Below are positions 7,085 to 24,001 of a DNA stretch of 24,831 nucleotides, in pieces. Each line of letters begins with the position of its first letter. The stretch's first letter is position 1. The notes beneath the pieces were generated by a model, which saw nothing but the letters and a program-made list of their open reading frames with translations, was not told where the DNA came from and did no database searches. Source of the DNA: a virus; IMG/VR virus record IMGVR_UViG_3300042691_006063, positions 1 through 24,831 of that record. The stretch is one strand, 5' to 3'. The translations under genes were made by a program, and so were the position numbers.

Positions 7085-7930
7085 ATGGCAACGCTATCTT
7101 CCTACCTTACGGAAGTCAGGCGGCTTCTGCATGATGCCAACGCCAATTTCTGGTCTGACGCCGAACTAACCGACGCCATCAACGGCGGTCGGCAGAGGAT
7201 TGTCCGCGACACCGGGTGTTTGCGGACGATTCAGGTGTCGTACACCCCGCTAGGCGGGGACGGAAATGCGGCAGCGCAGTGGACGGCAGGAGCGTTGGTA
7301 ACGCTCAACTCCTACGTCTACAACAACATTTTCATCTACAAGGTGACGCAGGCTGGCATTCTTGGCAGCAGTGCGCCTCCGTACCCAAGCGGCTCTAACG
7401 TTTACCCACCCAGCACGCCGTTCACGGATGGCACGGCGCAGCTGACGTACTACGGGCCTGCAGAAATTATCTCCTACGCGAATCTTCCACAAGGTTCGCA
7501 GACGCTGGACATTCTGAACGTCAACATCTACTGGGGTAACACGCGACTACCTCTGCGTTACTTGCCGTGGACGAACTTCAACGCGCAGCTACGGTATTGG
7601 CAGAACTACATCGGTCGTCCGGTGTGCTTCTCCACGTTTGGGCAGAACCAGATTTACATCGGCCCTGTACCCGACCAGTCGTACACGGTAGAACTTGATA
7701 CCGTCATCCTGCCGACCGATCTGACTATCGGTTCACCCAACGTCACTGACCAAATCCTTGATCCGTACACCAGCCCGGTGAAGTTCTACGCTGCCTACCT
7801 TGCCAAGTACAAGGAACAGAGCTACGGCGAAGCAGAGATTTTTAAACAGGAGTACATGAAGCAGACGCAAGCTGTCCTGAACTCCGTGTTTACACGCAGA
7901 ATCCCTGACGCCTACAGTTCTACGTTCTAG
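7085..7930 (+). CDS. Head-tail adaptor with inserted Trp/Gly module
   Basis: 281 residues. The N-terminus (YLTEVRRLLHDANANFWSDA, then ELTDAINGGRQRIVRDTG) is the helical signature of podovirus head-tail adaptors (P22 gp4 / T7 gp11 type), which join the portal to the tail hub. The C-terminus (SPVKFYAAYLAKYKEQSYGE, then AEIFKQEYMKQTQ) is the returning long helix pair of that fold. Between them residues 65-124 form a module with W66, V72, Y79, Y85-K86-V87-T88, P98-P99 and D115-G116-T117, matching a small beta module common in phage virion and fibre proteins. The ribosome binding site is weak. The adaptor call is good; the module's job is unknown, perhaps surface display or sugar contact. Confidence 0.75.
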   Translation: MATLSSYLTEVRRLLHDANANFWSDAELTDAINGGRQRIVRDTGCLRTIQVSYTPLGGDGNAAAQWTAGALVTLNSYVYNNIFIYKVTQAGILGSSAPPYPSGSNVYPPSTPFTDGTAQLTYYGPAEIISYANLPQGSQTLDILNVNIYWGNTRLPLRYLPWTNFNAQLRYWQNYIGRPVCFSTFGQNQIYIGPVPDQSYTVELDTVILPTDLTIGSPNVTDQILDPYTSPVKFYAAYLAKYKEQSYGEAEIFKQEYMKQTQAVLNSVFTRRIPDAYSSTF

Positions 7931-7932
7931 TC

Positions 7933-10155
7933 ATGGCAGCGTCTGAACAGAAAAAATCCTACGCAGTCATCAAGAACTTCACTGGCCTTAACACTAAGGC
8001 CAACCGGACAGCTATCCGGGAAGAGGAGTTTGCGTGGCTGGAAAACGCCATGCCTATCGGGTTTGGCAGCATCAGGATCGTTCCTGCCCAGACGGCTGTA
8101 ACTGACACGGGGAATGCTGTTGCGTTCTCCAACACCGTCACCCTGCTGACGAGCGTCAACGTCAACAACAAGGACTACATCCTTGGGTTTCAGGACAACG
8201 GAGCGGCGCAGTACGTCGAGATGACAGGCGCTTCTACGGGTACACGGGGAAACATTGCCAGCAGCGGGACGTTCTCTACCGCCAACGTCAGTGCGGCTCA
8301 GTACAGCAACGAGCGGGTGATGATTGGCGACCCCAACAAGGGGTTGTTCACCTGGAACGGGAACACGCTGGTTGGTATCGGTTCTGTCGGCCTGATTGCG
8401 GTCACCAACCCAGGGTCAGGTTACACATTTCCGCCTACGGTGACGCTGTCTGCGCCTAACGACGCTAACGGCGTTCAGGCAACGGCTACAGCAACGATTA
8501 GCACCAGTGCTGGTGGCATAGCGGCCATCACCATCACAAACGAAGGCAGCGGGTATGCCTACGTTCCAACCGTCATCATCGGACCTCCCAACGATGCTGG
8601 CGGCATCCAAGCGCGTGCGGTGGCGACCATTTTGTCGTCCAAAGTCAGCGCTATCACCATTGTTGAGTCAGGTTCTGGGTACACCACCGCACCTACTGTT
8701 TCCATCATTGGTGGCGGTGGAACTGGAGCAAACGCGGCTGCAAACCTAGCATCTGGCATCGTCAACAGCGTCTTTGTCACTAACGCTGGAAGCGGCTACA
8801 CCACGCCTCCTACGGTGACGTTTTTTGACGGCAGCGGCACCAACGCGGCGGCTGTTGCCGAGCTTGTGACCTTTGAAAAAGGCACGGTGACGGTGTTTGT
8901 CACCAACGGCGGCAACGGGTACACCTCAACACCGACAGTCACGATCAGCGGGGGCGGTGGAGCCAACGCAAACGCTATCGCTATCGTGCAGGGCGGCGAG
9001 GTGGTGAGCATCATCACCAATCAGCACGGCAACGGTTACACCAGCAACCCGACGGTAACCATTACGGGTGGCGGCGGCAACAACGCAACAGCCAACGCTA
9101 TCGCTCTGCTGGACGAGGTGGTGGACGTTGCCACGTTTGGCGGGCGCACCTGGGTGGCCTACGGGCGGACAATTGCGTGGAGCGCGGCAGGCACCTACAA
9201 CGATTTCACGGGCGTGTCTGCGGGTTCGCTGACGCTGACGGACAGCACCCTGCACGGGAACATCCGGGCTATCTACAGCGCCAACAACTTCCTGTACATC
9301 TTTGGCGACGACAGCATCAACGTTATCAGCGACCTTCGGGTGGATTCCACGGGTCAGACGCTGTTCACCAACACCAACGTCAGCGCCAGCGTAGGCACGA
9401 AACGCATCTACGCCATCTTCCCGTACTTCCGGTCCATGCTGTTTATGAACGACTACGGCATCTATGCCTTGGTCGGCTCTACTACCAGCAAACTGAGCGA
9501 CCAGCTGGACGGCATTTTCCCGCTCATCGACTTCACGCAGCCGGTGTCAGGCGGTCAGGTGCTGATCTTCAACATCCTCTGCGCAGCCTTCTCTTTCACT
9601 TACACGGATGCCGTGCTGGGAGCAAGGCAAGTTCAGGCCGTGTTCTTTGAGAGGAAGTGGTTCCTGACGCAGCAGGGGGCGCTTTCCTACGTCACCAGTG
9701 CTCCTGTTGGCGGCAGCATCAACTTGTACGGCGACATTGACAAGACGTTGTACCGGCTATATGCCAACAGTTCAGCCAGCATCAGCAGCACGGTCAAGAC
9801 GGCTTTGCTGCCTATGGGCGACAACATCCGCACCAAACAGGCTCTGAAGTTTGGTATTGAGGCAACGCTTGCCAACAGCGCAACGCTCACAGTGACGGTG
9901 GACAGCGAGTCTGGCAGCAGCCCAAGCTACACCGTTCAAAACGCGGTGTCTTGGCTCAACAACTCAGGACAGGTCATTCCTTGGGTGAATAACAGTTCGC
10001 TGACTGTTGTGTGGTTGTACTCATCTGGATATGCTCTGTACAAGTCTGACGCGCAGCAGTACGGCAAGTATCTTGGGCTAACCGTTACCAGCACCAATCC
10101 CAATTTCACCTACAACACGTTTGAGTTTGAGCACGAACTCAGAGTGAGGTTCTGA
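7933..10155 (+). CDS. Tail hub / nozzle protein (P22 gp10-like) with GSGYT repeats
   Basis: 740 residues. The opening (KNFTGLNTKANRTAIREEEF, then AWLENAMPIGFGSIRIVP) is typical of gp10-like and T7 gp12-like tail hubs, beta-propellers that form the nozzle of short tails. Residues 396-740 continue propeller blades (GGRTWVAYGRTIAWSAAG, FLYIFGDDSINVISDL, MLFMNDYGIYALVGS) and a final beta domain. Residues 153-395 are an insertion of six repeats (separate entry) between LFTWNGNTLVGIGSVG and VVDVATFGGRTWVAYG, where relatives normally go straight from one blade to the next. It follows the adaptor by two bases with little ribosome binding site, so coupling is likely. Function as tail hub is well supported; the insertion probably projects outward. 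Confidence 0.78.
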   Translation: MAASEQKKSYAVIKNFTGLNTKANRTAIREEEFAWLENAMPIGFGSIRIVPAQTAVTDTGNAVAFSNTVTLLTSVNVNNKDYILGFQDNGAAQYVEMTGASTGTRGNIASSGTFSTANVSAAQYSNERVMIGDPNKGLFTWNGNTLVGIGSVGLIAVTNPGSGYTFPPTVTLSAPNDANGVQATATATISTSAGGIAAITITNEGSGYAYVPTVIIGPPNDAGGIQARAVATILSSKVSAITIVESGSGYTTAPTVSIIGGGGTGANAAANLASGIVNSVFVTNAGSGYTTPPTVTFFDGSGTNAAAVAELVTFEKGTVTVFVTNGGNGYTSTPTVTISGGGGANANAIAIVQGGEVVSIITNQHGNGYTSNPTVTITGGGGNNATANAIALLDEVVDVATFGGRTWVAYGRTIAWSAAGTYNDFTGVSAGSLTLTDSTLHGNIRAIYSANNFLYIFGDDSINVISDLRVDSTGQTLFTNTNVSASVGTKRIYAIFPYFRSMLFMNDYGIYALVGSTTSKLSDQLDGIFPLIDFTQPVSGGQVLIFNILCAAFSFTYTDAVLGARQVQAVFFERKWFLTQQGALSYVTSAPVGGSINLYGDIDKTLYRLYANSSASISSTVKTALLPMGDNIRTKQALKFGIEATLANSATLTVTVDSESGSSPSYTVQNAVSWLNNSGQVIPWVNNSSLTVVWLYSSGYALYKSDAQQYGKYLGLTVTSTNPNFTYNTFEFEHELRVRF
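8389..9117 (+). repeat. Six tandem GSGYT-type protein repeats (about 40 aa each)
   Basis: Within the tail hub, residues 153-395 hold six units. Each has a strand of the form VxxIxVTN, then a turn GSGYT or GNGYT, a PTVT strand, a Gly-rich or Asn/Asp loop (GGGGTGA, APNDANG) and an Ala-rich strand. The first two units carry PPNDAxG-type loops; the last four carry GGGG or GSG loops. The DNA copies differ at many codon positions, so the array is old or has diverged and is not a recent DNA duplication. Such repeats occur in many phage fibres and surface proteins. Confidence 0.85.
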
Positions 10156-10634
10156 TGCCAGTCGCATACACATTTGCCAGCCGTACCAGCAGCATCCCGC
10201 TGTCGGAATTGGACGCCAACTTTTCTACAGGCATCACGCTTGGCAACACCGTCATCCAGCTTGGGAACACTGTCACGCAGTTGAACCAGATGACGATGGT
10301 CAACCAAGTGGTGACCAACTATACGGAAACGTCAAACGCGGCCAACACTGGAACGGCTTATACCATTGACCTCGCAGCAGGTACGGTGCAGATTCTGACC
10401 CTGACGGGCAATTGCACCTTCACGTTCCCCACGCCAACCGCAGGAAAGAGCTTCCTGTTGCTGCTGAAACAAGATGCTGTGGGCGGCAGAACTGTGGTGT
10501 GGCCCAGCACGGTGAAGTGGCCCAGTTCTTCTGCTCCGATTGTTACCACTACCGCCAACAAGGTGGACAAGTACGTTTTCACCGCTGACGGAACGTACTG
10601 GTACGGCTCTAACGGCGGTCAGAACTACCTGTAA
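10155..10634 (+). CDS. Short tail fibre / fibre-anchor protein
   Basis: 159 residues; ATG shares its A with the tail hub stop, with GAGTGAGG before it. The N-terminus (MPVAYTFASRTSSIPLSELD, then ANF) is the short start commonly seen on phage fibres and their adaptors that attach to the tail hub. Residues 24-55 have a repeat-like helical stretch (TLGNTVIQLGNTVTQLNQM), probably a trimeric coiled coil. The C-terminal 90 residues (AGTVQILTLTGNCTFTFPTP ... TADGTYWYGSN) are a known fibre-tip beta domain style. Likely trimeric fibre or nozzle plug. Confidence 0.72.
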   Translation: MPVAYTFASRTSSIPLSELDANFSTGITLGNTVIQLGNTVTQLNQMTMVNQVVTNYTETSNAANTGTAYTIDLAAGTVQILTLTGNCTFTFPTPTAGKSFLLLLKQDAVGGRTVVWPSTVKWPSSSAPIVTTTANKVDKYVFTADGTYWYGSNGGQNYL

Positions 10635-14830: not shown

Positions 14831-16341
14831 TGGCTAACGGCTTGAACGTCGCGCTTGACCGGATGACCCCGGCACTGTTCCGTCCTCCTGCGGAACCTAA
14901 GCCTACGCCTGTTCAGCAGGCCAGCGAAAAGCTCACTGGCATTGAGGAAAAGCTCGGGCAAGCGCAGCAAAAGGCTGGAGAGTTTGAAGCCAAGAAGGCA
15001 GAGTTTTCTGCTACGCAAAAGGCGGCAGAAGCAGCTAAGGGCGCTGAATTTGTCAAGGCTGAGAGTGCTGCCATCTCAGGCTCCCAGGCCTACAAGGATC
15101 TGGAGCAAATCAACCGCGAGGCCGCGCAAGCCCGGTTCCAGCCTTCTCAGCGCACCATGCAGGAGAACGCTGCGCTGTTTGGGCTGATCAGCGTGATTGG
15201 GTTTGCCATCGGTGCTGGCGGCAAGTCCAACGCCATGTCTGCTATGTCTGCCATGAACGGGATGCTGGAAGGCGCTCGAAAAGGCGACATGGATCGGTAC
15301 AACAAAGAGAAGGATACGTTCAACACAAACCTGCGGGCGCTGACGCAAAAGTCTCAGTTGCTAGCTACCGAGGTCAAGCGCATCACCGACTTGGCTGCGC
15401 GTGACCGCGAGCAGGCTCGGTTGGAGTTCGCGTCCTTGCAGGCCAAGGAAGGCGCTGACTTTGTTCGGCAGTATGCCGACAGGTTTGGACTTCCTGCTAC
15501 CGTCAAGTATCTGGAGCAGCAAGCCAAGGGTGCAGAGCGGATGCTGCAAATGGCACTGCAGGCGGACGCCCGTGAGCAGGCTCGCGTGCAAGCCGAGCAG
15601 GCTCGCATGGAACGTGAGCGTGAGCGTTTGACTGCTCAGAGGCAATTGCAGGAAGAGCGCCTACGGTCGCAACGTGAGAACACTTTGTTGCGCCTTGAGG
15701 TTCAGAAAGATCTGGCAAAGCAACGAGCAGATGCCGTGGTCGCAAAGGGGGAAGCCAAGAGCAAGTTAGATAACAAAGACATTCGGCAGTTGGAAGCGTA
15801 TGACTCGCTTGCTAAGGGTCTGGAAGAACTGAAGAAGACCTTCAAGCCCGAGTACGCCGGTATGGGCATCGTGGGATTTGGTGCAGATATTGAAGCAGAA
15901 GCCATGCGCAGGCTTGGGGGCAAGGAGGCCGTTGACGCCATGTCGTGGTGGTCCAAGTATGCCCAGTTGCAAGCTCCCAGTCGTCACGCGCTGTTTGGCG
16001 CGACCCTTACCGGCAACGAGCTGAAAAACTATCAGGAATACACGGCCAAGCGGTCGGACTCGCCCGATTTTGTGCTGTCTTCGATTGATCAGCAGATTCA
16101 GCATTCAAAGGGTCAGGCAGAGCTGAAGCGTGACCTGTTCCGGGGCGCAAACAAGGAAGTGCCTGAAATCAAGGCGCGTGACTACTTCACCTCATTTGCT
16201 GGCCCTGCACAACCCGTCGCTGAGCCTGCTGCTACGCCTGCTGCCGCAACTTCTCAGCCAACTCATACGTTGAGGGGGAGGCCGATTGTTGTGCGAGATG
16301 GTAGGTGGGTGTTTCAAGATACCGGTGAAGAGGCTAAGTGA
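14830..16341 (+). CDS. Coiled-coil internal virion protein
   Basis: 503 residues from ATG 14830 (TGATG overlap; an in-frame GTG lies just before). Coiled coils cover about residues 30-100 and 150-330 (for example QARVQAEQARMERERERLTA). Between them is a small hydrophobic patch (ALFGLISVIGFAIGAGG) that could insert in a membrane. Residues 335-460 form a more globular helical part; a short C-terminal beta motif follows a Pro/Ala linker (TLRGRPIVVRDGRWVFQDTG). Position, length and coil content match podovirus ejection proteins. No lytic or protease motif is visible. Confidence 0.65.
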   Translation: MANGLNVALDRMTPALFRPPAEPKPTPVQQASEKLTGIEEKLGQAQQKAGEFEAKKAEFSATQKAAEAAKGAEFVKAESAAISGSQAYKDLEQINREAAQARFQPSQRTMQENAALFGLISVIGFAIGAGGKSNAMSAMSAMNGMLEGARKGDMDRYNKEKDTFNTNLRALTQKSQLLATEVKRITDLAARDREQARLEFASLQAKEGADFVRQYADRFGLPATVKYLEQQAKGAERMLQMALQADAREQARVQAEQARMERERERLTAQRQLQEERLRSQRENTLLRLEVQKDLAKQRADAVVAKGEAKSKLDNKDIRQLEAYDSLAKGLEELKKTFKPEYAGMGIVGFGADIEAEAMRRLGGKEAVDAMSWWSKYAQLQAPSRHALFGATLTGNELKNYQEYTAKRSDSPDFVLSSIDQQIQHSKGQAELKRDLFRGANKEVPEIKARDYFTSFAGPAQPVAEPAATPAAATSQPTHTLRGRPIVVRDGRWVFQDTGEEAK

Positions 16342-19241
16342 TGGGCGAAGAACTGCCACCTCTTCCTGCTGGCGCTCAACCTATTGCGTCTCCACCGCTC
16401 CCGCTTGGGGCAAAGGCCATTTCTGAGCAGCTTGCTCCACCCATGCCGGTTGGGGCAATACCTGTTGCCGGAGGAGTCCCTCGTCCTATAGGCCAGTTGG
16501 GATACCCGGAAGAGTCTCTCCAGCCATCCCGCCGCGAGCGCGTAGCCGAGGTTGGGAAAGCGGGTGGAATTGGTGCCGCGTTAGGTTTTGCCACACCTGA
16601 ACTCATGCGAGGTCTTGGCGCGAGTATGCGGGCTGTTCCTAGCGTTGCCCCCTACGCTGGTGCTGTGCAGGCTATGGGCGAGGCGTCCCGTGGTTTTGGC
16701 CCGCGTCTGGCACAAAGCCTCTATGGAGGTATTGGTGGTCTGACGGGAGAGACGGCTGGACAAATACTGGAAAGCAAGGGCAAGGGCGGTGCTGTTGCCG
16801 AGGCCGCTCGGTTTGGTGCGGGTGCAGGTGGACAATTGGCAGCAGAAGGGGCTGTAAGGTTTCTCAGCAACCGGGTTACTGGTCCGCTCATGTCAGCCGT
16901 GCTGAACCGCCTTCAGCCTGGAGTGGGTACGTTTGGAAGAATGCTTGGGCAGATGAGTGAGCCGGAGGCCGCTGCAGTTCCTGGGTTGACATTGAACGAA
17001 CGTCAGCAAGAGTTCATCCGGCAAAAGCTACTCTCTATCCGTGGGCGCGAGCGTGACCCTGCTGTTATCGAGCGTACCGAGCGGGAGATTTACGGTTTCC
17101 TGCGACAGGTAGCAGACGATGCCTTGCTGACCGCAGATAGCCAAGCCAGAAGCGCGTTCAACCAAGCCGACCAGTTGCTTAGAGATGCAGAGTCGGCAAC
17201 GGGTCAGATGAAGGCAGATTTGACGCAGCAGCTGGGGCGCATCTCGTCTCAGTTTGAGGCTTCTGCCATGCGCTTGGAGAAGTCTGGGCGGGACGCGGTC
17301 AAGCTCATCAACGAGCAAGCAGAACAGACGGCCAAGAACATTCTGGAGCGAGCTAGGCAGCAAGGCCCGGAAATGCAGCAGGCTGCTCAAGCCGAGGCTA
17401 ACGCCATCCGACAGCGGGCTGCTGATGATGTCAGGCAGCTAACGGAGACGCTGAACGCACGCATGACCCGTATGCGGGACGTGCGCGACCGTCTGCGTCA
17501 GACAGGTGTTCAGCGTGTTGCGACTGCTGAGCGTGAGGTTCGTGGTGTTGGCGAACAATTGACGCCGACAGATCTTGGAACCCGTATCCGCGAAGGGTTC
17601 ATGAACAAGATCAACGAACTCAAGGCCGTCCGAGAGTCAAACGTCACCAAGAACAAAGAAGCGGCATTTGGAGAAGCTAGGGCTAAAGAGCAGGCTGGGC
17701 AGCGATTTAACCAGACCAAGGCATATGGCAAGGCTGTTGAGCAGATCAACACTTCCTTGAAGAGCCCTGAAACCGGGCTTGCCAATGTTCCGTCTGGGGA
17801 GATCCGCAAGGAACTCACGCAGATCAAAGAAGCGCTGTCTCGCGGTATTCGCACGGAAACCACGGACGAGGCGGGCAACGTCATCATCAAGTACCAGCCT
17901 CTGAGTTTTGAGGCTCTGGAGGTGCTGAGGCGCAACCTGCGCGACAGGTCGTTTGGCCTGCCTGATACCGGGTACAGCGCTATCGGTCAGCAGCAGGCTG
18001 GCAAGTTGGCGTCGGCTATCGAGTCCATCCAGAAAGAGTTCTCGCCTGGGTTTGAGACGTACTTGGCGCAATACGCTGCTGACTCTAAGCCGCTCAACGA
18101 GTTCAGGAACAGGCTAGGCAAGTCCATATCGGGTGTGGCTGAGTACGACATGGCTCAGTTCCTGACTGACCCGTCTACGCTAGGAGCTGCTGCTTTTCGT
18201 TCTGCAGGAACGGTGCAGCAACTCATCGACACCGTGGGTGCCAAGGAGGCTGACAACCTCGCTCGGGCGTTTATTGCCGACAAGGTAAGGGGTGGGGCGG
18301 CAAAAGACGTTGCATCTGCGCTGGATGCCTCTCGTGATTGGATCGGCAAGTTTCCTGCGCTGCGCCAGGAGCTTGATCGGTTGGCTCAACGTGCTGGTGT
18401 TGCTGAATCAACGCAAGCGAGGCGAGAAAAACTTTCTAACGTCTTACGCACGAGGATTGGTTCTACGGCTGAAGAACTTGCCAAAAGGACTCGGGAACTT
18501 CCAGAAGCCGCTGCTGAAGCTGCGGCGACGGTTGAACGTAAGGCTGGTGAAGCGGCAGCAAAGGTGTTGCCTGCTGCCGAGAAAGAGGCGGCTGAGGTAA
18601 AGGGCAAGGCGGCTACTGCGGCTGCAGCAAAAGAAGCCGACGTTCGCGCTCAACTGGAGGCGCAGGCAAAGACAGTAGAGCGGCGTAAGACTGCGGTAGA
18701 AAAGGAAGCCGAGGGCAAGATTGCCGAGGCAACTCAAGCCGCTGAGGCTGGTGCAAAAGGCTTGCGTGAGGCTGGAGAAGGTGCAGTTACTGCGGCTAAG
18801 GCTCAAGAACAGTTGCTGCTGGGCAAGGATGTCAAGCCCGCTGCCCGTCTCAAGCAGATCATTGAGAACGTCGGCAAGCCTCAGTTTGCAACTGAACTCA
18901 GGACCGTCAGTGAGGCTATCCGTAGCTCTCCAGAGATGCGTCAGAAGTTTGAGCAGGCCGTTATCGAGCATGTTGCTGACAACTTTCAGCGTAGCCCCAA
19001 AGGCGGTGTGTCTGCAGCAGAAACCTTGTTCAAGAACTTGCGAGACGAAGGTTTGATTGACCCTCGCAAGGAAAAGGAAGTACTGGACAAGTTGCGAGAG
19101 GTAGCGGTTACGCCAGCCGACCTCAAGACTCGTCTCAGTCTCGCCCGTACTGCCGTGCGTGGCCTCATCATGTCTGGTGTGCGCGTAGGCGCGACAGCAG
19201 CTACCCCTAATTTTTCCAAACCAAAGGAAGAGCAGCCATGA
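16341..19241 (+). CDS. Giant coiled-coil internal/ejection protein
   Basis: 966 residues, the largest product here; ATG 16341 overlaps the previous stop (TGATG). The first 55 residues are Pro-rich (ELPPLPAGAQPIASPPLPLG). Residues 70-200 are Gly/Ala-rich small-residue helices (GGIGAALGFATPELMRGLG, SLYGGIGGLTGETAGQILE). Residues 220-420 and 700-860 are long charged coiled coils (ADVRAQLEAQAKTVERRKTA), separated by a mixed region around 430-680. It resembles in build T7 gp16-type tunnel proteins, but no transglycosylase motif (E-S-S and G-L-M-Q) was seen. It likely forms part of the DNA-ejection tunnel. Confidence 0.65.
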   Translation: MGEELPPLPAGAQPIASPPLPLGAKAISEQLAPPMPVGAIPVAGGVPRPIGQLGYPEESLQPSRRERVAEVGKAGGIGAALGFATPELMRGLGASMRAVPSVAPYAGAVQAMGEASRGFGPRLAQSLYGGIGGLTGETAGQILESKGKGGAVAEAARFGAGAGGQLAAEGAVRFLSNRVTGPLMSAVLNRLQPGVGTFGRMLGQMSEPEAAAVPGLTLNERQQEFIRQKLLSIRGRERDPAVIERTEREIYGFLRQVADDALLTADSQARSAFNQADQLLRDAESATGQMKADLTQQLGRISSQFEASAMRLEKSGRDAVKLINEQAEQTAKNILERARQQGPEMQQAAQAEANAIRQRAADDVRQLTETLNARMTRMRDVRDRLRQTGVQRVATAEREVRGVGEQLTPTDLGTRIREGFMNKINELKAVRESNVTKNKEAAFGEARAKEQAGQRFNQTKAYGKAVEQINTSLKSPETGLANVPSGEIRKELTQIKEALSRGIRTETTDEAGNVIIKYQPLSFEALEVLRRNLRDRSFGLPDTGYSAIGQQQAGKLASAIESIQKEFSPGFETYLAQYAADSKPLNEFRNRLGKSISGVAEYDMAQFLTDPSTLGAAAFRSAGTVQQLIDTVGAKEADNLARAFIADKVRGGAAKDVASALDASRDWIGKFPALRQELDRLAQRAGVAESTQARREKLSNVLRTRIGSTAEELAKRTRELPEAAAEAAATVERKAGEAAAKVLPAAEKEAAEVKGKAATAAAAKEADVRAQLEAQAKTVERRKTAVEKEAEGKIAEATQAAEAGAKGLREAGEGAVTAAKAQEQLLLGKDVKPAARLKQIIENVGKPQFATELRTVSEAIRSSPEMRQKFEQAVIEHVADNFQRSPKGGVSAAETLFKNLRDEGLIDPRKEKEVLDKLREVAVTPADLKTRLSLARTAVRGLIMSGVRVGATAATPNFSKPKEEQP

Positions 19242-20671: not shown

Positions 20672-22996
20672 ATGCGCAAGGGTTTGGGTCGTCACAACCG
20701 CCGCAGTCCGGGGACGTTCAACCCCGGAGTGCTCTTCGCTAACGGCGAACAAGGCTTCTGGTACGACCCCACCGACATCCCGCTGGCGTGGCGGCGGAAT
20801 TTGCTCACTTACACGGAGCAGTTTGACAATGCGGCGTGGACGAAGGCTAATTCAACGATTACCGCCGATGCTGCGGTCGCTCCTGACGGAACTACGACAG
20901 CCGACAAGCTGGTTGAAAACACTGCAAACGCTATTCATTCGATTGGGCAAGGAAAAACATTTAGCGCGGGGACGTATTGCATTAGTGTTTACGCCAAGGG
21001 TTCGGAACGTACACGTTTAGAAATTGCAACGCAGCCAATGGACGTTGGTTTTGACCTTGCCAACGGAACCATTCTTTACGGGACTGGCGGAACTATTACA
21101 GCCGAGGGTAATGGTTGGTATCGCTGTGTTGTTGCTTTTACTCCATCTAGCAGCCTGAACACGGAAATTCGTCTTCTCAACGCAACCAGCCAACGCACCT
21201 ACACCGGCGACGGCACTTCCGGCCTGTTCATCTGGGGCGCTCAACTAGAACTCGGCTCCACCGCCAGCACCTACCAGCAGATCGTCACGCCTGAGATCAG
21301 CTTCCTTCAGTACCAGTCCCAGCCGGTGCTGTACCAAGACTCCGCAGGCACCACGCCCGTCACCGCTGTCGAGCAAGCCGTAGGCTTGATGCTGGATAAG
21401 TCGAAGGGGTTGGTGCTGGGGAGTGAGCGGATGGCCAACGGCACGTTCGCTTCTGGCACAACGGGATGGTCCTCATTCCAGGCCACGTTGTCCGCTGTCG
21501 GTGGATGGGGTCTTGCGACCTCAACTGTTTCAACTGGCGCGGCTCAAATTTATCAATCTTTTAATGCGCCTGCCTTAAACGGTAAGTGGTATTTGTTTTC
21601 TGCAAAATACCGTAACAAAACAAGTTCTGGAGCTGCCAGGCTAATTATTTACAATATTAGCGCAGGTTTTGCTTCAATTACCACAGTATCGTCCTCTGCC
21701 GCAAGCGGCACGCTTTCCTGCATCGGCTTTGTCCCGGCAACGGGAGACATGCAAGTTGTCTGCGAGTTTGCAACTAACGCAATCGGTGAGTCGATTGAAT
21801 GGGACGATGTTTCCCTGCGCGAACTCCCCGGCAACCACGCCTTCCAGACCTCCTCCACCAAGCGCCCGGTGCTGCGGGCGAGGTATAACCTGCTGACGTA
21901 TTCGGAGCAGTTTGATAATGCGGTGTGGACGAAAGGTAGCGCCACAATAACTGCAAATTCCGCAGTTGCGCCTGATGGGACGACTACTGCTGATAAGTTG
22001 GTTGAGAACACAGCATTTGGTGCGCATCAGGTTTTTGTATCTTTCACATTTGCAGTAAATGTTGCCTACAGTTGGTCAGTTTACGCAAAAGCCGCTGAAC
22101 GAAGCTGGATATGGGTTAACGCTCAAGATGGTTCTGATAATAGAACTTGGTTTGATTTGGCAAATGGTGCAGTAGGAACTAACTCGGCAGGCAATGCCGC
22201 AAGCATTACTTCTGTTGGCAACGGTTGGTATCGTTGCAGCGTTAGTAGAACCACAGCAGCCGCAAGTGGGTTTTTCGCGGCTGGGTTGGCAACAGCAGAC
22301 AACACTGCTACCTACACCGGCGACGGGGCTTCTGGTGCGTTTATCTGGGGCGCAGACCTCCGCCCCACCAGCCAAGCCACCGGCCTGATCGGCCCGACGT
22401 ACCAGCGCATCGCCGCAGCGACGGACTACGATGTGGTGGGGTTCCTGCCGTATCTGGCTTTTGAGATTGACGATGCCCTGACGACGAATAGCATTGACTT
22501 CTCCGGCACGGACAAGATGACCGTTTTTGCGGGCGTAAGGAAGTTGAGTGATGCTACGGATGCGCTATTGGTTGAGTTGAGCGTAAATGCTCCCATAAGC
22601 ACTCGGGCGTTTTACTTGGCAGCTCCAGAATCTGCGTCATTACTTTCGTATTCTTTTTTCGGGCTTGGTGCTGCTGCGGCTAGTCCAAACCAAAGGGCTG
22701 GCACGGCGCTGGCAACGTATCCAGCGCCGATTACAAACGTGTTGACCACAACGGGCGATATTCCCGGAGATCTGAACACTATTCGCGTAAATGGTATTGC
22801 GGGAACGTCTGCCACTGGCGATCAAGGCACCGGCAACTACGGCAACTATCCGTTGTTTATCGGCGCACGCAACCAGACATCGGTTTACTTCAACGGCTGG
22901 ATTTATTCGCTGATTGGTCGCGGGGCGGCTACAACCGCTGGGCAGATCGCGGCCACAGAGCAGTGGGTGGCCGGTAAGTCGGGGGTGCAACTGTGA
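20672..22996 (+). CDS. Modular receptor-binding / tail fibre protein
   Basis: 774 residues. A short basic head (MRKGLGRHNRRSPGTFNPG) leads to GFWYDPTD, then beta module A (residues 43-204), a linker (LYQDSAGTTPVTAVEQAVGL, then MLDKSKG), a second jelly-roll-like module (about 254-385, ending SIEWDDVSLREL), module A' (406-580), and a C-terminal domain (about 590-774) with lectin/LamG-like strands (IDFSGTDKMTVFAGVRKL, YFNGWIYSLIG). A and A' share NLLTYTEQFDNA-WTK, PDGTTTADKLVENT, GNGWYRC and TYTGDGxSGxFIWGA. These resemble carbohydrate-binding modules of phage receptor-binding proteins. GC drops sharply in module cores. Very likely the host-sugar-binding fibre or tailspike-like protein without an evident catalytic domain. 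Confidence 0.75.
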   Translation: MRKGLGRHNRRSPGTFNPGVLFANGEQGFWYDPTDIPLAWRRNLLTYTEQFDNAAWTKANSTITADAAVAPDGTTTADKLVENTANAIHSIGQGKTFSAGTYCISVYAKGSERTRLEIATQPMDVGFDLANGTILYGTGGTITAEGNGWYRCVVAFTPSSSLNTEIRLLNATSQRTYTGDGTSGLFIWGAQLELGSTASTYQQIVTPEISFLQYQSQPVLYQDSAGTTPVTAVEQAVGLMLDKSKGLVLGSERMANGTFASGTTGWSSFQATLSAVGGWGLATSTVSTGAAQIYQSFNAPALNGKWYLFSAKYRNKTSSGAARLIIYNISAGFASITTVSSSAASGTLSCIGFVPATGDMQVVCEFATNAIGESIEWDDVSLRELPGNHAFQTSSTKRPVLRARYNLLTYSEQFDNAVWTKGSATITANSAVAPDGTTTADKLVENTAFGAHQVFVSFTFAVNVAYSWSVYAKAAERSWIWVNAQDGSDNRTWFDLANGAVGTNSAGNAASITSVGNGWYRCSVSRTTAAASGFFAAGLATADNTATYTGDGASGAFIWGADLRPTSQATGLIGPTYQRIAAATDYDVVGFLPYLAFEIDDALTTNSIDFSGTDKMTVFAGVRKLSDATDALLVELSVNAPISTRAFYLAAPESASLLSYSFFGLGAAAASPNQRAGTALATYPAPITNVLTTTGDIPGDLNTIRVNGIAGTSATGDQGTGNYGNYPLFIGARNQTSVYFNGWIYSLIGRGAATTAGQIAATEQWVAGKSGVQL
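20798..21283 (+). repeat. Receptor-binding module A (first copy)
   Basis: Residues 43-204 of the receptor-binding protein. It shares with the second copy the N-terminal LLTY-EQFDNA, the TTTADKLVENT strand, FDLANG, the GNGWYRC strand and the TYTGDGxSGxFIWGA closing motif, with a different centre. Confidence 0.8.
21887..22411 (+). repeat. Receptor-binding module A' (second copy)
   Basis: Residues 406-580 of the receptor-binding protein, homologous to 43-204 at the ends but with an unlike, AT-rich middle and a longer loop before the TYQRI end. Codons differ often, so the duplication or acquisition is not recent. Confidence 0.8.
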
Positions 22997-23421: not shown

Positions 23422-23585
23422 ATGCAACCATCATTACCGCTGTTGTGCGGCATGTCCTGACTGCTCTTGCAGGAGGGTTCTTCGTTCAGTACGGTGTGGA
23501 CGGTGACACGCAGAACGCTATCGTCAGCGGTCTGTCTGCTGTTGCCGGTCTAGGCTGGTCCGTCTGGGACAAGCGTGGGCGATGA
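23418..23585 (+). CDS. Holin (Pam3-gp28-like)
   Basis: 55 residues, coupled by ATGA. Two hydrophobic helices (TAVVRHVLTALAGGFFVQYG; NAIVSGLSAVAGLGWSVW) separated by a short acidic turn (VDGDTQ) and a basic C-terminus (DKRGR). The RHxLTALGG... plus a closing AGxxWSxWDK pattern matches the Pam3-gp28 type of small phage holin. Holins open the inner membrane to time lysis. The next gene, an endolysin, begins inside its stop codon, the classical cassette order. Confidence 0.8.
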   Translation: MNATIITAVVRHVLTALAGGFFVQYGVDGDTQNAIVSGLSAVAGLGWSVWDKRGR

Positions 23586-24001
23586 TAAACAGCCGCAAGC
23601 TGGAAGACCTTCACCCAGCCGTCAGGAGGCGCGTAGAGGCGTTTCTGGAGGCTGCTAGGGGTGAGGGTATAGATCTGCTGGTGACGAGCACCTATCGCGA
23701 TCTAGAGTCCCAGGCGGCTCTCTACGCGCAGGGCAGGACGGCACCGGGAAAGATCGTCACCAACGCCAAGCCTGGGCAGAGTTGGCACAACCACAGGTGT
23801 GCGGTAGATGTCGTGCCTCTGCGTGCTGGGAAGCCTGTCTGGAGCGACAAAGACCTGGTGTGGCAGCGCGTGGGTGAGCTTGGCGAGCAGGCTGGTCTAG
23901 AGTGGGCTGGGAGGTGGACTCGGTTTCGAGAATTCCCGCACTTCCAGTACACGGGTGGTGCTACGCTGGCGCAGTTGCAGCAAGGCTGGATACCGTCGTG
24001 A
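23582..24001 (+). CDS. Endolysin, M15-type peptidoglycan peptidase
   Basis: 139 residues. It carries the zinc peptidase motifs of the M15 (VanY / L-alanyl-D-glutamate endopeptidase) family, such as the T5 endolysin: TSTYRDLESQAALYAQGR (35-52), S67-W-H69-x6-D76 in SWHNHRCAVDV, a GLEWAGRW strand (105-112), and the second zinc His, H120, in EFPHFQY. The usual Gly three after the first His is Arg72 here. It cuts stem peptides of the cell wall. No signal peptide or wall-binding domain, so it depends on the holin for release. The start overlaps the holin stop as ATGA; a GTGA overlap links it to the next gene. Confidence 0.87.
   Translation: MINSRKLEDLHPAVRRRVEAFLEAARGEGIDLLVTSTYRDLESQAALYAQGRTAPGKIVTNAKPGQSWHNHRCAVDVVPLRAGKPVWSDKDLVWQRVGELGEQAGLEWAGRWTRFREFPHFQYTGGATLAQLQQGWIPS

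Follow-up and report, generated by a model that had tools for sequence, protein, structure and literature searches.

The IMG/VR virus record IMGVR_UViG_3300042691_006063, which we analysed over positions 1 to 24,831 (the whole 24.8-kb stretch, hereafter the window), encodes at positions 7933-10155 a predicted podophage tail hub, or nozzle protein, of 740 amino acids (aa), interrupted by six copies of a GSGYT-type repeat unit. Across its relatives the hub carries two, four or six of these units, and covariation in the four-unit form shows that two units close into one domain. The copy number is most likely even because two repeats fold jointly as a nozzle-tip domain: with the pair as the building block, odd numbers of units could not occur in an insert. 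We consider it probable, with appreciable room for doubt, that the protein as a whole is a podophage tail hub with nozzle-tip domains made of paired units, which are nested in the six-unit form.

The translation of the hub gene contains six consecutive units of ~40 aa (U1 to U6; residues ~152-395, window positions 8386-9117), which follow the pattern G-x-G-Y-(T)-x2-P-T-V and continue into a Gly-rich or Pro-Asn-Asp loop. Every one of the six scores 45-66 bits with a unit hidden Markov model (HMM) built from relatives, so the array is not due to chance, and the six units within the hub that an original prediction had read from the sequence alone are confirmed. The Gly loop that it placed after each unit holds for U3-U6 but not for U1 and U2, which have a 'PNDAxGxQA' loop instead. 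Tandem Repeats Finder reported nothing at the DNA of the array, in which direct repeats are only 64-73% identical; given this divergence between the copies, the array is old. In an AlphaFold2 (AF2) model of the hub, built with 103 aligned relatives (mean predicted local distance difference test (pLDDT) score 87.9; ~92 in the repeats), each unit has three strands; a single-sequence model with a pLDDT of 34 was discarded. A conserved TFxxGT linker forms the end of U4. The units, with the putative domains (A, B and C) to which they are assigned below, are:

8386-8517, + strand: U1, residues 152-195, putative first half of domain A (HMM 58 bits; the first unit kept in four-unit relatives)
8518-8646, + strand: U2, residues 196-238, putative first half of domain C, missing in four-unit relatives (HMM 45 bits; orthology matrix; alignment of hubs L424 and L448)
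8647-8763, + strand: U3, residues 239-277, putative second half of domain C, missing in four-unit relatives (HMM 50 bits; two-residue AF2 turn to U2)
8764-8883, + strand: U4, residues 278-317, putative second half of domain A (HMM 54 bits; equals the second unit of four-unit relatives, 61% identity)
8884-9000, + strand: U5, residues 318-356, putative first half of domain B (HMM 66 bits)
9001-9117, + strand: U6, residues 357-395, putative second half of domain B (HMM 52 bits; U5-U6 covariation ladder in six-unit relatives)

Relatives were collected from eight IMG/VR scans, one genome scan and two GenBank records, with the sampling seeded from members of the window hub family; odd forms may lie outside this sample. 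Of the hubs obtained, 573 spanned the whole insert, and these comprised 403 distinct ones; nine incomplete open reading frames (ORFs) were left out of the copy-number classes. Two units (insert of 84-85 aa) are present in 61 of the 403 distinct hubs, four units (163-179 aa) in 261 and six units (244-254 aa) in 81, and none of the 403 has an odd or zero number. Inserts with apparently five or seven units were regex artefacts caused by extra GxGY motifs inside loops, and the shortest apparent insert (18 residues, L410) belongs to a frameshifted six-unit hub. Parsimony on a tree built without the insert requires at least 10 changes in copy number, of which supported branches make at least 6 unavoidable; the two-unit hubs form one clade. 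Neighbouring units are no less alike (44%) than next-nearest units (41%), so nothing in the sequences should stand in the way of slippage by a single unit. Copy number in this hub family follows a 2/4/6 rule: it differs between relatives, as had been predicted, but is not 'free to vary', despite the repeated changes on the tree.

Mean-field covariation was computed with our own script at effective depths of ~50 for four-unit inserts, ~20 for six-unit inserts and ~137 for pooled pairs. In four-unit inserts it is concentrated in the U1-U2 and U3-U4 blocks, and the U2-U3, U1-U3, U1-U4 and U2-U4 blocks are near background. The pooled pairs have an antiparallel ladder at i+j=35, which is missing in an out-of-register control. 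Both (6,29) and (29,6) are present, and this indicates that strand 1 of each unit lies beside strand 3 of the other, in a pseudo-twofold closed domain. In half-sample tests U1-U2 was always within the top two, with U3-U4 alongside in 5 of 12. Two units (6 strands, ~85 aa) would pack antiparallel and pseudo-twofold as one closed β-domain; four-unit relatives would then consist of domains A and B, and two-unit relatives of one domain.

The six-unit form is probably nested as [U1[U2 U3]U4][U5 U6], on support that is thin. The units of four-unit hubs correspond to U1, U4, U5 and U6 of six-unit hubs (59, 61, 58 and 52% identity, respectively), and two hubs with 86.5% identical flanks, L424 and L448, differ by exactly U2 and U3, at the U1/U4 hairpin. 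Reference linkers at known junctions measure 17 residues within a pair and 19 between pairs; those of six-unit hubs measure 19 (U1-U2), 17 (U2-U3), 19 (U4-U5) and 17 (U5-U6). The AF2 turns at U2/U3 and U5/U6 have two residues and the others have 4-6, and the covariation ladder in six-unit hubs is 1.76 for U5-U6, 0.67 for U2-U3, -0.26 for U1-U2 and -0.14 for U3-U4. A tandem order (U1U2)(U3U4)(U5U6) was rejected, because these linkers, turns and covariation signals agree better with the nested one. Domain C (U2 and U3) would sit in the central hairpin of domain A (U1 and U4), with domain B (U5 and U6) following. More tentatively, the nozzles of this large uncultured group may lengthen by a quantised nested rule, in which a whole two-repeat domain enters the central hairpin of an existing domain, so that length steps through one, two and three domains and odd numbers are forbidden; a rule of that generality is conceivable rather than likely.

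Several observations count against the paired and nested arrangement or the structural role given to it. The U3-U4 linker is 17 rather than 19 residues in 35 of 80 six-unit hubs where it was measurable, and a transfer test in six-unit hubs gives a higher score for U1-U3 (z 3.7) than for U1-U4 (z 2.2); the U1-U4 pairing is the weakest link of the nested reading. The effective covariation depths of ~50 and ~20 for the four-unit and six-unit forms are small. Moreover, the insert is clearly less conserved than the C-terminal flank, which leaves room for some selection at the surface.

The predicted structure identifies the 740-aa protein as a podophage tail hub or nozzle, given that all 28 best PDB matches of the AF2 model (Foldseek) are podophage nozzles or hubs, including those of cyanophage A4, Pa223, SU10, T7, HRP29, P-SCSP1u, P22 (gp10), Sf6 and the crAss001 muzzle. 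The top BFVD match is named 'Bacteriophage P22, Gp10, DNA-stabilising' (54% identity), and the fold matches in both databases bear out the earlier assignment to a hub of the P22 gp10/T7 gp12 type. By sequence, the hub has no match among solved PDB structures; over residues 399-513 the match to a P22-type stabilisation protein, which has no insert at the blade 2/3 junction, is marginal (BLASTP E 0.002; profile comparison E 1.6e-4 at a probability of only 50%). PHROG names for the hub (baseplate wedge, tail fibre, head protein) stem from the shared repeat and have no identifying value. The AF2 model shows a platform, seven blades and the insert. In our own reading of its strand list, two platform stretches enclose seven four-strand groups (residues 69-109, 120-148, [insert], 396-434, 446-483, 495-520, 539-579 and 584-623), which places the insert at the junction of propeller blades 2 and 3. 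With seven other four-strand blades accounted for in the model, the units would be an insertion, as claimed at the outset, rather than propeller blades themselves. The predicted parts of the hub are:

7933-10155, + strand: tail hub/nozzle protein, 740 aa (ORF; AF2 model pLDDT 87.9; PDB and BFVD fold matches)
7954-8097, + strand: stretch preceding blade 1 (AF2 strand pattern, analogy with the SU10 and T7 nozzles)
8137-8259, + strand: propeller blade 1, residues 69-109 (four-strand group, AF2 model)
8290-8376, + strand: propeller blade 2, residues 120-148 (four-strand group, AF2 model)
9118-9801, + strand: propeller blades 3-7, residues 396-623 (five four-strand groups, AF2; residues 399-513 weakly resemble a P22-type stabilisation protein in sequence)
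9808-10137, + strand: stretch after blade 7 (AF2 strand pattern)

Several known nozzles carry domains at or near the same propeller opening: SU10 gp17 has four immunoglobulin (Ig)-like nozzle domains between blades 2 and 3 (PMC9509320), crAss001 gp44 has IG1 at the blade 2/3 junction (PMC10172136) and the nozzle tip of T7 gp12 exits at the blade 3 opening (PMC6702177). Hence, the premise of the original prediction that a tail hub is normally compact fails for nozzles in general. SU10 gp17 (PDB 7z47; PMC9509320) shares with the window hub a seven-bladed propeller and platform, a fold match and an adjoining SU10-type adaptor, but in this fold match the two sequences are only 9% identical, and no internal repeat is reported for its four Ig-like domains, whereas the window family would have one, two or three domains of two GSGYT units each. 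T7 gp12 (PDB 6r21) likewise has a seven-bladed propeller and platform, with a nozzle-tip domain that exits the 'bottom' opening by blade 3, but this tip is a single barrel instead of a repeat array. The ΦcrAss001 muzzle gp44 (PDB 7qol; PMC10172136) also matches in fold; unlike the window hub, it has a single IG1 and a very large crass domain, and GSGYT repeats are not reported for it. P22 gp10 (PDB 8u10), whose name is borne by the closest predicted viral structure, matches with an E of 3.5e-10 but is compact at 471 residues, and a P22-type relative (P0002) has ~20 residues at the insert position. Repeat and pair profiles found no PDB relative by sequence, and the insert has no Pfam match at useful scores; a check of the unit pair for an Ig-like fold gave six strands and the antiparallel pseudo-twofold ladder, with no PDB or Pfam sequence match. 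An FCCH-like barrel, suggested by the name of one nozzle-like BFVD match, found no such Pfam match and remains a lead.

The gene order in the window, portal-capsid-adaptor-hub-fibre, is that of podophage tail hubs. The two genes that adjoin the hub are:

7085-7930, + strand: adaptor (connector), the expected docking partner of the hub (Pfam SU10_adaptor, E 3.8e-11, above cut-off)
10155-10634, + strand: tail-fibre-like gene, 159 aa, downstream of the hub (PHROG 9017 tail fibre, E 6e-12; neighbourhood comparison)

Of 327 relatives examined, 324 have a fibre gene of one and the same family after the hub; its length ranges from ~160 to ~570 aa, with the window gene among the shortest. Its median length is 374 in six-unit, 244 in four-unit and 230 in two-unit hubs, with a wide spread inside each class. 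Known podophage hubs form a hexamer on a dodecameric adaptor, and SU10-type nozzle domains refold when the host is bound and so lengthen the tail. By analogy, we infer a hub hexamer, a nozzle extension and a fibre seat: six hub copies would ring the tail channel, and the domains would emerge from the propeller between blades 2 and 3, like the four Ig-like domains of SU10. Their most likely role would be to form or lengthen the distal nozzle, with contacts to the adjacent subunit, a seat for the fibre of the next gene and a rearrangement on binding.

The original prediction saw in the insert a repeat-built arm that could bind sugars or other virions. As a rival to our reading, such an arm would be exposed and attach to host sugars or to other virions, and the number of copies would adjust its reach or avidity. 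The identity of the insert across the three copy-number forms (58.9, 66.0 and 77.7%) is close to that of the N-terminal flank (61.3, 69.3 and 79.9%), so the insert is about as variable as that part of the hub, although the C-terminal propeller is better conserved, in more than 90% of comparisons for the four- and six-unit forms. An arm would also agree with the distal, exposed side of the tail on which the insert lies by analogy, and with the presence of the unit in PHROG tail-fibre families. However, the same unit is common to cyanophage baseplate-wedge, head-closure and other virion proteins, as a generic virion module, the copies come only as 2, 4 or 6, and Pfam matched no carbohydrate-binding family for hub or insert. 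With a separate fibre gene of very variable length next to the hub, and nothing found that speaks for sugar or virion binding, we regard the arm as unlikely; the role of a variable receptor-binding part would suit the fibre better. Given that the insert evolves much like the N-terminal flank and that the length-variable fibre is a separate gene, we prefer a structural role, as nozzle tip or fibre seat.

A role chiefly as a fibre dock that anchors the next-gene fibre, rather than as the channel tip, would fit the one-family fibre-like gene after the hub, and nozzle domain 4 of SU10 contacts the short tail fibre (PMC9509320). We nevertheless give it a low probability: the main fibre-dock elements of SU10 and T7 are elsewhere in the nozzle (PMC9509320, PMC6702177), and fibre length differs between copy-number classes in its median, yet spreads widely within each. 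The even numbers themselves could be a historical accident, in which lineage-specific events from 2 to 4 and from 4 to 6 units were inherited by clades with no structural rule. Both the single clade of two-unit forms and the orthology of the extra pair across clades of six-unit hubs speak for this, and the latter could reflect one gain followed by repeated losses or exchanges. However, well-supported branches require at least 6 changes, one of them between the two hubs whose flanks are 86.5% identical, and the pair also emerges as a unit from covariation, an independent signal, which makes an accident quite improbable.

Clear matches of the unit HMM were found in cyanophage virion proteins, for example the gp7-like baseplate wedge of P-SSM4, and in PHROGs 701, 708, 5342, 19630 and 460, which suggests that the GxGY unit is a generic virion building block. 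The cyanophage proteins contain the same unit, but in long baseplate, fibre and head proteins instead of a podophage hub. Their arrays have 2, 6 and about 8 units when divergent end units are counted, a loose fit to parity, and these counts were not clean enough to be used as proof of the even rule. A podophage hub with four GxGY units in GenBank MW202753 (9314-11302, L083) is annotated as 'baseplate wedge initiator', a name that probably derives from the repeat shared with cyanophage gp7.

Besides the portal, the adaptor, the hub and the fibre-like gene, the window encodes a capsid protein (PHROG 9953) and an M15/VanY-type peptidase, a probable endolysin (23582-24001). A 967-aa ORF at 16338-19241, whose Pfam matches are all weak and of coiled-coil type (PhaP_Bmeg, apolipoprotein), is a candidate internal or ejection protein. 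A 774-aa tail protein (PHROG 5939, E 2e-52) is encoded at 20672-22996; it contains two copies of a segment starting 'RRNLLTYTEQFDNAAWTKANSTITADAAVAPDGTTTADKLVENTA', near residues 41 and 404. This internal duplication may be that of a binding domain. In the genome scan, hub genes L164, L165, L166 and L167 were found in metagenome-assembled genomes (MAGs) of Bacteroidetes, Saccharibacteria, Balneolaceae and a beta-proteobacterium; given that these four matches sit in MAGs of four unrelated phyla, they are likely mis-binned phage contigs.

The interest of this hub lies in its parity and nesting rule rather than in the presence of repeats. The GxGY unit, which is widespread in cyanophage virion proteins but has no solved structure, is here assigned a structural role. 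In this family the sequence repeat and the folding domain would differ by a factor of two, with strict parity over hundreds of natural variants, and the parity rule offers an explanation, both simple and testable, for changes in the length of phage tail tips.
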